DNA from: Geminocystis sp. GBBB08
GTDB lineage: Bacteria > Cyanobacteriota > Cyanobacteriia > Cyanobacteriales > Cyanobacteriaceae
Direction: 5' to 3'
DNA length: 54,921 bases
Assembly (NCBI RefSeq): GCF_016743215.1
Contig: NZ_VRZC01000001.1
Span: 1-54,921 of the forward strand
The notes below the pieces were generated by a model. That model was not told the DNA's origin. It saw only the letters and a program-made list of their open reading frames with translations, and did not search any database. Positions 6,441-11,727 of this stretch are shown in pieces (positions within the stretch are counted from its first letter, which is position 1; each line of letters starts with the position of its first letter). A program made the position numbers and the translations under genes.

Positions 6441-8330
6441 TTACACTGAAACAGTAGTTTTGCGACGACGACGAGTAAATTTATTATCGCTTTCTTCTTC
6501 TTCTTTCTGATTATCAGCTTCAGAAATATTACTGTTACCATTATTATTCCCATTTATTGTTATGGCTTTAGGAGTATTTTCAGGAATTTGTAGCATAAAA
6601 ATAACTAAAGGTTCGCTATCCAATTCTCGTTGAATCAATCGCCCTAAGTTTGTCTCAACATCGATGCGAATACTTGTCCAATTAACTTCATCATGACCAT
6701 TTAAGAGTAAACTACTTTTAAGTCGATCGATAATAGTTTTATCAATAGTACGAATAATCATACGCTCAAGAGTAGTAATTTCAATTTTACAAACAACACC
6801 ACGTAAATTAATTTGGGGTTGAGTTAATAAACGCCCTTGATTATCAACACTAGCGGCAATGGTAATAACTCCATCTTCAGCTAACTGTTGGCGCTCTTCC
6901 ATTACGTTATCATGGACAACTCCAGAGGTATCAACTAATTGAATACCAGAAGGCACTTTATCCCCTTTGCGAATACTATCCGCCGTTAATTCAATGGTGT
7001 CACCATTTTGAATAATGACAATATTTTCCGCAGGAATGCCGACACTTTGCGCCGTTTTTGAGTGTTGTACTAACATTCTATGCTCACCGTGTACAGGTAT
7101 AAAAAACTTAGGTTTAGTTAAGGCTAACATCAATTTTTGATCTTCTTGGCAACCATGTCCAGAAACATGAACACCTGCTTGTTTTCCATAAATTACATTT
7201 GCCCCTTGCATCATCAGGCGATCGATAGTATTGACGACAGGTATAGTATTACCTGGAATCGGATTAGCAGAAAAGATAATTGTATCACCAGCTTTGACTC
7301 TTACCTGACGATGTTCACTGCGAGAAATTCTTGTCATGGCGGCAAATTTTTCTCCCTGAGAACCAGTGCAAAGAATTAAAACCTCATTATCTGGTAAACT
7401 ACCTAATTGGCGTAACGGCACAAATAAATTATCTGGTACTTTAATATATCCTAAGTTACGAGCATGAGCTATTACATTTAACATCGATCGCCCTACAATC
7501 CCTACTTTGCGATTATGCTTTAGTGCCAAATCTAATAAGATATTAACTCGATGCACAGAAGTAGCGAAAGTTGTTACCATTAAACGCCCTTTCGCTTGAG
7601 TAAAAGCACGATCTAATCCAGGATATACTGCTTTTTCAGAGGGAGTAAAACCAGGCACTTCTGAGTTAGTAGAATCACCTAAGAGACATAATATCCCTTC
7701 TTGTCCTAATTCTGCTAAACGGTGTAAATCGAAATACTCATTATCTACAGGAGTATGATCTATTTTATAATCTCCTGTGTGAATTAAAACACCGATGGGG
7801 GTATGAATAGCAAGAGTGAAACTATCAGCGATAGAGTGAGTATTGCGGATAAACTCGACTTTAAAATGCTTCCCAATTTTAACAATTTCTCGGGGAAGTA
7901 CTGTTTTAATAATAGTACGATCTTGTAACCCTGTTTCTTCTAATTTATCTCTTAATAGTGACATAGCAAGACGAGGACCATAAATTATTGGTGTGTCAAT
8001 CTGTTTGAGGTGATAAGGAATACCCCCAACATGATCTTCATGCCCATGAGTTACAATCATCCCTTTAATCTTGTGTTGATTTTCCTTGAGATAAGTCATA
8101 TCAGGTAAAACAACATTAATACCGTGCATTCCATCTGTCGGAAAACCGATACCAGCATCCACAAGGATAATTTCATCTTCATATTCATAGATACAAGTAT
8201 TTTTACCAATTTCGTGTAAGCCACCGAGGGGAATTACTTTTAAAAGAGGCTTATTATTTCTTGCCGGAAGAATAATTGCTGGTTTTTCTGTGGCAGTAGT
8301 TTTTCTTTTTCTAGCTTGAATTTGATACAT
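6441..8330 (-). CDS. rnj: Ribonuclease J
   Basis: The 629-residue metallo-beta-lactamase/beta-CASP ribonuclease works in 5' to 3' exonucleolytic and endonucleolytic mRNA decay and rRNA processing in the cytoplasm. The zinc-binding motif is VTHGHEDHVGG near residue 83, followed by GDYKIDHTPVD, the beta-CASP region (MVTTFATSVHRVNIL) and FIPVHGEHRMLVQH. The C-terminal domain is present. The last 40 or so residues are low-complexity (asparagine/glutamate, then TRRRRKT), a cyanobacterial extension that could bind RNA or partners. It lies downstream of dapA and asd on the same strand, an order often seen in cyanobacteria. The 447-base gap to dapA suggests its own promoter. Confidence 0.96.
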   Translation of the reverse strand: MYQIQARKRKTTATEKPAIILPARNNKPLLKVIPLGGLHEIGKNTCIYEYEDEIILVDAGIGFPTDGMHGINVVLPDMTYLKENQHKIKGMIVTHGHEDHVGGIPYHLKQIDTPIIYGPRLAMSLLRDKLEETGLQDRTIIKTVLPREIVKIGKHFKVEFIRNTHSIADSFTLAIHTPIGVLIHTGDYKIDHTPVDNEYFDLHRLAELGQEGILCLLGDSTNSEVPGFTPSEKAVYPGLDRAFTQAKGRLMVTTFATSVHRVNILLDLALKHNRKVGIVGRSMLNVIAHARNLGYIKVPDNLFVPLRQLGSLPDNEVLILCTGSQGEKFAAMTRISRSEHRQVRVKAGDTIIFSANPIPGNTIPVVNTIDRLMMQGANVIYGKQAGVHVSGHGCQEDQKLMLALTKPKFFIPVHGEHRMLVQHSKTAQSVGIPAENIVIIQNGDTIELTADSIRKGDKVPSGIQLVDTSGVVHDNVMEERQQLAEDGVITIAASVDNQGRLLTQPQINLRGVVCKIEITTLERMIIRTIDKTIIDRLKSSLLLNGHDEVNWTSIRIDVETNLGRLIQRELDSEPLVIFMLQIPENTPKAITINGNNNGNSNISEADNQKEEEESDNKFTRRRRKTTVSV

Positions 8331-8777
8331 AATTTTCTTAATTATTTAACTTTTTTGGATAGATTAATTGTAGGGTGGGCAATAATGCCAATATTTTTGA
8401 CTAATAGTTATTCTTAGGGCGAATATTATTACCATTTCTAACTATTATTTTTTAGAGGTATATTACCAACATTAATGACTTTCAAAAATTATCTTTTTTT
8501 ATTGGTAATTGATAGTTGTTTGAGGGATAAACTAAAAATTATAAACAGGCTTAATAATTGTAAAAATTAATTTTAATAACTAGATAAATATTCAGTAAAA
8601 TCGGGAAAACAATTACTTTAGTTAAATATAAAATTTAGGGGCGGTGCATCGCCTTATTAACATTTATCCATGATTATTAACCTCCTCAAATAAAAACGAT
8701 TTATCATATCTCTTTCATTGACTGAAAAACTTTTTTTAACTGCTTTTAAATAATCTTAATTTCATTAACATGACTAT
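8331..8777. other. Intergenic region between dapA and rnj
   Basis: These 447 very AT-rich bases hold no credible coding region. There is a fragment of the dispersed GTAGGGTGGGCA repeat at about 8370-8381 and a GGGGCGGTGCATCGCC fragment near 8637-8652, which recurs as GGCGATGCACTACCT near 15719 and as TTATGCACCGCCCAC near 21948. It probably contains the rnj promoter and leader, but no clear -35/-10 pair stands out. RNase E-type leader elements could not be recognised. Confidence 0.6.
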
Positions 8778-9671
8778 TTATAATAAGCCCAAATTTTGTA
8801 AATTTTTTTTAACTTCCTCTTGTTGATTAGGAGTTAAATTTGTTAATGGTAATCTCAAACTACCCACATCCCAACCTTGTAGTTGTAGGGCATATTTGAC
8901 GGGAATAGGGTTGGTATTGCAAAATAAAACCTTGAATAAACTATACAATTGTTCTTGAATTTTTTGAGCTAAAGAATTATTCCTATTTTCGTAGGCTTGA
9001 ATCATGGTTTGAATTTCTTTGCCAACTAAATGACTTGCGACACTAACAACTCCAACACTTCCTACCGTCATCATCGGTAAAGTTAAAAAATCTTCTCCTG
9101 AGTAAATAAAAAAATCGGAAGGAGCAATTATTTTTATTCTAGCAGTTTGTTCTAAATCTGCACTAGCTTCTTTTATTGCTACTATATTATCTAAATCCTG
9201 TGCTAATTGAGCAGTGGTTTCCGCTTCTAAATTTTTACCAGTCCTTCCGGGTATATTATATAACATTATCGGCACATCAGGATTAGATTTAGCAATGGCA
9301 CTAAAATGTTGATATAATCCTTCTTGAGGTGGTTTATTATAATAAGGTACAACTTGCAATGAACCATCAATGCCTATTTTAGAGGCTTTTTGAGTATCTT
9401 TAATCGCTTTAGCGGTAGAATTTGAACCCGTACCCATAACTATTTTAGCACGATGACCCACCGCATTTTTAACCACTTTGAGTAATTGATATTTTTCGTC
9501 ATCTTCAAGAGAAGGAGATTCGCCCGTAGTGCCACAAATAACTAAACCGTCACTACCATTATTAACCAAATGATCGGCTAATTTTTCAGCAACACCATAA
9601 TTAACAGATAAATCCTCATGAAAGGGTGTCACCATAGCGGTTAAGACTCTACCAAAAATATAATCACTCAT
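8778..9671 (-). CDS. dapA: 4-hydroxy-tetrahydrodipicolinate synthase
   Basis: This enzyme condenses pyruvate with aspartate semialdehyde in the diaminopimelate/lysine pathway in the cytosol. The N-terminus FGRVLTAMVTPF, the ICGTTGESPSL loop, the tyrosine in MLYNIPGRTG and the Schiff-base lysine in NIVAIKEASAD are all present. I place the start at the ATG at 9671 (MSDYIFGRV, 297 residues); the frame extends three codons further to a TTG at 9680. It lies on the same strand as asd, the preceding enzyme of the pathway, but a Uma2 gene is interposed, breaking the usual asd-dapA adjacency. All expected catalytic residues are intact, in contrast to asd. Confidence 0.97.
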   Translation of the reverse strand: MSDYIFGRVLTAMVTPFHEDLSVNYGVAEKLADHLVNNGSDGLVICGTTGESPSLEDDEKYQLLKVVKNAVGHRAKIVMGTGSNSTAKAIKDTQKASKIGIDGSLQVVPYYNKPPQEGLYQHFSAIAKSNPDVPIMLYNIPGRTGKNLEAETTAQLAQDLDNIVAIKEASADLEQTARIKIIAPSDFFIYSGEDFLTLPMMTVGSVGVVSVASHLVGKEIQTMIQAYENRNNSLAQKIQEQLYSLFKVLFCNTNPIPVKYALQLQGWDVGSLRLPLTNLTPNQQEEVKKNLQNLGLL

Positions 9672-9858
9672 TATTATCAATCAACGGAAGGTTTAAGTAG
9701 GGAACATTGCCCATAATTTAGAATATTATACAATAAACGGACATACGAGAAGTCTCTTAAATAATGTTTTAGTTAAATGCTCAATGAATTATACTGCCCT
9801 AGGCAAAGGGTAGCTGTACAACTTTTGCATAACAGAATCTTAAAAAGATTTTAAGCCC

Positions 9859-10407
9859 TTAACACATTAATTGTTCAACGTTTATGATTATTTGAGGAAA
9901 AGAAAGAGGATTGATGATACCTGTTGTTAAAGTTAATTCAGAAGTGTAATTATTATTTTTGAGATCCCTAAATACTTTTAATTGGGAATTTTTTAAATCC
10001 ACAACCCAATATTCAAGAATACCAGATTGTGCATAAATATCTTTTTTTTCCCCTAAATCTTGATTCAACGTAGTTTGAGAAAATTCAATAATCCAAAAAA
10101 TATCTTCAGGGTAAGGATGATGTTTAAGATATTCTTTCCCTAAAGGTTTTACTATAGCAATATCTGGTTCTGGTTCGGAATTATTGGGGAGTGTAATGGG
10201 TTTAGCATCTCTAATTTTAGCTTTATTTCCTAATAAATTTCTGAGATAATCTCCTGCCTCTGTATTATAATAAGCATGAAGCTCTCTTTCCGGTGACATA
10301 ATAATAATTTCTCCTCTTAATAATTCTACAGATTCACCATCAAATATGCCCTTATCAATAGCGTTATGATAATGTTCTGTTGTCCATTTATAAGTAGTTA
10401 AAGTCAT
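9859..10407 (-). CDS. Uma2 family protein (DUF820, PD-(D/E)XK nuclease fold)
   Basis: The protein is 182 residues if started at the ATG at 10407 (MTLTTYKWTTEHY); the frame extends eight codons further. It has the Uma2 pattern: an N-terminal LLRGEIIIMSPE, then NSEPEPDIAIVKP, then WIIEFSQTTLNQDLGEKKDIYAQSGILEYWVVDL. This family has a restriction-endonuclease-like fold with acidic metal ligands (D in EPDIAIV, E in IIEFS) and is greatly expanded in cyanobacteria, often in mobile or repeat-rich positions. Its biological role is not established. It sits between asd and dapA on the same strand and looks like an insertion into that conserved pair. A second member is at 21964. Confidence 0.92.
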   Translation of the reverse strand: MTLTTYKWTTEHYHNAIDKGIFDGESVELLRGEIIIMSPERELHAYYNTEAGDYLRNLLGNKAKIRDAKPITLPNNSEPEPDIAIVKPLGKEYLKHHPYPEDIFWIIEFSQTTLNQDLGEKKDIYAQSGILEYWVVDLKNSQLKVFRDLKNNNYTSELTLTTGIINPLSFPQIIINVEQLMC

Positions 10408-10713
10408 AATATTCAACTTTTTTTTGAACAATTTTTTCGTGAATCAATATAATCTAAAATTATTTTTTCCAGATTATTCATATCAAGGATAAATCATTAA
10501 TATTGATAAAGTCTAATCAACTTTGTGTTAAAGATTCTAATGGAGGAGTTTATAATTCATTAATGGGCGAACTCCAGAGTAATATTACCAAAATGTTTTG
10601 ATAATAAACCCCATAAGCACTCGACTTGGAAAAGATCATCTTGTAAATATATTTTGATTAATTCCTCTGACGAATAGTTAATACCTGCTAGTAATTCAAC
10701 ACATTAAAATTAA

Positions 10714-11727
10714 TTAGTTTTTTTCGTTTATCAATAACTCCGCAATTTGCACTGCATTTAACGCCGCACCTTTACGAATTTGATCACCGCATAACCATAA
10801 CTCGATGGCATTTGGGTTAGAAATATCTTGCCTAATTCTACCTACTAAAACATCATCTTTTCCAGTGGCATCTATAGGCATAGGAAAATAATTTTTATCC
10901 CAATCTTCTAATAATTTTACCCCCAAAGATTGAACAATAATTTCTCTTGCTTTATCTATAGAAAAAGGTTGCTCAAATTCAAGATTAATCGCTTCAGAAT
11001 GAGCTCTTAATACAGGCACTCTCACACAAGTTGCACTAATACGCAAAGAATCATCATGGAAAATTTTACGAGTTTCATTAACCATTTTCATCTCTTCTTC
11101 ACAATAATTATTATCAGTAATAGGTGAATTATGAGGAAATAAATTGAAAGCTAAAGGATAAGGCAACACTTCTGCTACAGGATTTTCTCCTTTTAAAATG
11201 GCTTGAGATTGAATTTTTACTTCCTCCATCGCCCTTGCACCTGCACCACTGGCAGATTGATAAGTAGAAACTATAATTCTTTTAATAGGCTGAATTTGAT
11301 GTAAAGGATAGATAGCAACCCCCATTAAAATAGTTGTAAAATTAGGGTTAGCAATGATTCCTTGATGGGTTAAAGCATCTTTAGGATTAATTTCAGGTAC
11401 AACTAAAGGAACGTCAGGATTCAGGCGAAAAGCACTAGAATTATCAATCATCACTGCACCTGATGAGACTATCGTATTCGCCCAGTGTTTAGAAGTCGAG
11501 CCTCCTGCGGATGCTAACACTATATCAACATCTTTGAAGGAATTTTGCTCAACAGCTTGAACTTCGATTAATTCGTCTTTAAAGGCTATTTTTTGCCCAG
11601 CCGAGCGAGGAGAAGATAATAATTTTAATTCTTTTATCGGAAAATTACGCTCAATCAATAAATCAATAATTTCTGTACCAACTGCCCCCGTTGCCCCTAA
11701 AATAGCAACATTAACTTGATTAGACAA
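10714..11727 (-). CDS. asd: Aspartate-semialdehyde dehydrogenase, catalytic cysteine replaced by phenylalanine
   Basis: The 337-residue protein matches cyanobacterial Asd along its whole length: GATGAVGTEI nucleotide-binding loop, LASAGGSTSK, IDNSSAFR, YQSASGAGARAMEE, NETRKIF, VRVPVLRAHSEA (catalytic His) and GDQIRKGAALNAVQIAE. Asd makes aspartate semialdehyde for lysine, threonine and methionine synthesis. The active-site motif, normally NPNC(T/S)TI with the acyl-forming cysteine, reads NPNFTTILMG here: residue 130 is Phe, codon TTT at 11338-11340. A single G to T change from TGT would explain it. As family knowledge, loss of this cysteine abolishes activity, yet the gene is otherwise undamaged and usually single-copy and essential, so a sequencing error must be considered. 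Downstream are a Uma2 gene, dapA and rnj. Confidence 0.95.
   Translation of the reverse strand: MSNQVNVAILGATGAVGTEIIDLLIERNFPIKELKLLSSPRSAGQKIAFKDELIEVQAVEQNSFKDVDIVLASAGGSTSKHWANTIVSSGAVMIDNSSAFRLNPDVPLVVPEINPKDALTHQGIIANPNFTTILMGVAIYPLHQIQPIKRIIVSTYQSASGAGARAMEEVKIQSQAILKGENPVAEVLPYPLAFNLFPHNSPITDNNYCEEEMKMVNETRKIFHDDSLRISATCVRVPVLRAHSEAINLEFEQPFSIDKAREIIVQSLGVKLLEDWDKNYFPMPIDATGKDDVLVGRIRQDISNPNAIELWLCGDQIRKGAALNAVQIAELLINEKN

Follow-up and report, generated by a model that had tools for sequence, protein, structure and literature searches.

Bacterial-type aspartate-semialdehyde dehydrogenase (Asd) reduces beta-aspartyl phosphate by way of a thioacyl-cysteine intermediate. The Usg-type paralogues of Asd (NF005368 PRK06901, NF004224 PRK05671 and NF005957 PRK08040) belong to the same fold family and some of them are not known to have Asd activity, and N-acetyl-gamma-glutamyl-phosphate reductase, ArgC, represents a related family. 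In the H. influenzae enzyme, exchange of the nucleophile for serine (C136S) left an activity of less than 0.01%, and Salmonella asd mutants are dependent on diaminopimelate and lyse without it (PMC3276109). A literature search on the essentiality of asd in cyanobacteria gave no usable result.

Within a window of 54,921 nucleotides from Geminocystis sp. GBBB08, we analysed the asd gene at 10714 to 11727 (minus strand), which has a TTG start and encodes 337 amino acids. The protein passed the bacterial-type asd equivalog models NF011456 (467.5 bits; cut-off 223) and TIGR01296 asd_B (408.9 bits; cut-off 324.2). Like other proteins of this type (for example, 2yv3), it is full length, contains both domains (PF01118 and PF02774), is encoded with dapA nearby and has all other checked active-site residues; it differs at residue 130, which is Phe and not the nucleophilic Cys. 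The protein remained below the cut-offs of the three Usg-type models (NF005368, 54.8 against 437; NF004224, 223.9 against 284; NF005957, 234.2 against 273) and of the ArgC model TIGR01850 (58.9 bits against 233.6).

The initial annotation had described a replacement of the catalytic Cys by Phe, and this description was exact. Positions 11338 to 11340 read AAA on the plus strand, giving a TTT codon on the minus strand, and the reading frame around residue 130 is ...GIIANPNFTTILMGVAIYPLH..., with F at 130. This codon, at which a Cys codon is expected, aligns to the Cys of the solved structures 2yv3 and 8juo. The motif reads NPNFTTI, and the nucleophile of NPNC(T/S)T is missing from the gene as assembled, the base itself being doubtful; the catalytic His and the substrate-binding residues are in place. 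Judged from its sequence, the protein apart from residue 130 appears to be a normal bacterial-type Asd.

We compared the gene with asd loci from the same genus, family and order and from cyanobacteria at large (110 loci including this one; a few genomes present in two collections were counted twice). Residue 130 was Cys in all 109 other loci, those of four same-genus species included, and only Geminocystis sp. GBBB08 deviated. The gene is a clear asd orthologue, its product being 89–91% identical to those of the congeners, and it has kept 116 of the 117 positions at which the other loci are invariant, the sole exception being residue 130. When checked singly, R101, N129, Q157, E212, K214, R241 and H243 were unchanged in 110/110 sequences. 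These residues include the catalytic His (codon 243, 10999 to 11001), the Asn adjoining the nucleophile (codon 129, 11341 to 11343) and a conserved active-site Gln (codon 157, 11257 to 11259), all on the minus strand. The earlier claim that the other conserved segments, including the catalytic His, are intact was thus borne out. No new Cys that could compensate has arisen in this protein: C209 and C234 occur in all 110 sequences and C313 in 99.

We also searched 388 sampled genomes of the order using a DNA pattern for NPNFTTI, and the only match within an asd gene was that of Geminocystis sp. GBBB08. The seven other matches lay in non-asd open frames of 15 to 34 residues and were ascribed to chance. 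To find another sequence from this species, we scanned genome contigs, where the best relatives reached 89%, and viral contigs, where the codon 130 site gave no match with either base.

Codon 130 is TGT in two of the four congeners and TGC in the other two. One G>T transversion would account for TTT when compared with these codons. The synonymous divergence of asd from the congeners is large (dS 0.58–0.95), and the pairwise dN/dS values to the congeners (0.076–0.112, versus 0.067–0.097 among the congeners) gave no sign of relaxed selection in comparison with the four species. Purifying selection on asd has thus been as strong here as in the congeners, and the gene has been functional until now. 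An old, inherited loss of the nucleophile, or a rebuilding of the enzyme over an appreciable share of this divergence, would be expected to relax the gene or to alter its evolution near the active site; since no such effect was seen, TTT is either absent from the organism, as an error of base or consensus, or extremely recent.

Phenylalanine provides no nucleophile, and at this position we infer that it would be at least as damaging as Ser. The behaviour of the C136S variant of the H. influenzae enzyme (PMC3276109) gives good grounds for the inactivity that the initial annotation expected of the encoded protein. The same annotation had left a choice between an error, a second copy of the gene and a remodelled enzyme. 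The first of these, widened to include a very recent mutation, fits the data best. We consider it likely that TTT reflects one base that is either wrong or unrepresentative, introduced by an error of base calling, consensus building or strain mixing, or by a very recent mutation that was picked up in the DNA sampled and has not become established. This reading is favoured because Cys is found in every other locus, the codons differ by one step, all but one of the invariant positions are kept and dN/dS is unrelaxed. It is favoured further because enzymes acting on the Asd product are present and only one asd copy was found, because the change from Cys to Ser alone all but abolishes activity and loss of asd lyses Salmonella (PMC3276109), and because the assembly is faulty elsewhere. 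The working asd of the organism would then most likely encode the usual Cys130, and we infer that the living population is not fixed for TTT.

One observation counts against a wrong base. No private substitutions at invariant positions were found in rpoB (636 positions, 30 sequences), dapA (61 positions) or rnj (161 positions), and a general excess of errors in the assembly was rejected. Across the assembly, wrong bases are not generally abundant and, because these three genes show no private deviation, TTT is an isolated event. We also considered an oxidative G>T library artefact; the direction of the change fits, and a single site only is concerned. The completeness score of the assembly is 99.91%, but the whole assembly contains neither psaA nor psaB, nor the main copy of chlH. 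The presence of psaD without psaA and psaB is best explained by assembly gaps. The genes on either side of psaAB in a congener are spread over many contigs here.

Local faults of this kind show that genes may be missing despite the high completeness score, and they leave a small opening for a second asd outside the assembly. The mutation would then be real and fixed, a functional asd would reside in the missing DNA (a gap or a plasmid), and the copy described here would be newly dead. We regard this as improbable. No second asd, whole or partial, was found in the assembly by searches with the two Pfam domains, with the DNA of the whole gene and with a protein query, and the search for another asd proposed in the initial annotation thus ended negatively within the assembly. 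Together, PF01118 and PF02774 detected two genes, asd and a gene on contig 48, which is argC (TIGR01850, 438 bits). A trace DNA match on contig 233 covers 31 bases only. Relatives also argue against a hidden copy: asd matched in 59 of 60 of their genomes, once in each, except for a broken gene in one 61%-complete genome, and all relatives that are at least 90% complete have exactly one asd.

A real and fixed mutation might also mean that the organism depends on lysine or diaminopimelate, threonine and methionine from outside, for example in a mixed culture. Such a dependence would agree with a single asd copy that has lost its nucleophile, but the enzymes that use the product of Asd are intact. 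The dapA gene at 8778 to 9680 (minus strand; TIGR00674, 350 bits; PF00701) encodes the next enzyme of the lysine/diaminopimelate branch, and homoserine dehydrogenase, another user of aspartate semialdehyde, is present in the genome. From the presence of both, it is reasonable to conclude that the cell makes aspartate semialdehyde. Moreover, selection on asd is unrelaxed and the cell wall needs diaminopimelate. We therefore find auxotrophy very unlikely. The last possibility, that Phe130 supports catalysis through a remodelled mechanism or that the enzyme has a changed activity, is hardly credible: its one attraction is that this asd shows perfect conservation elsewhere and seems to be the only copy, but the rest of the active site is unaltered, no Cys has been gained, Phe130 occurs in no other sequence among the 110, and Phe lacks the nucleophile at a position where even Ser left almost no activity (PMC3276109).

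Most likely, then, TTT does not denote a novel type of enzyme. In the likely event of a wrong base, the case serves only as a warning: a genome that is almost complete by its score may contain a base that would disable an essential enzyme, and psaAB may be missing from it as well. A genuine TTT would call into question the accepted thioacyl mechanism of an essential enzyme or point to an unexpected auxotrophy. That a sole essential Asd works without its Cys nucleophile, or that a free-living cyanobacterium has very recently come to be without the aspartate-semialdehyde branch point, we hold to be highly unlikely.

The surroundings of the gene were compared with those in the congeners. For the greater part of the remaining window, there is no counterpart near asd in these species. 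The gene order asd–dapA–RNase J (block 6441 to 11727, with RNase J at 6441 to 8330) is common to two congeners, G001 and G003, and did not appear in the regions retrieved for G002 and G004. A gene of the Uma2 family (PF05685, putative restriction endonuclease) lies between asd and dapA at 9859 to 10431 (minus strand). Since the distance between asd and dapA is only a few hundred bases in G001 and G003, the Uma2-family gene was probably inserted in this lineage.
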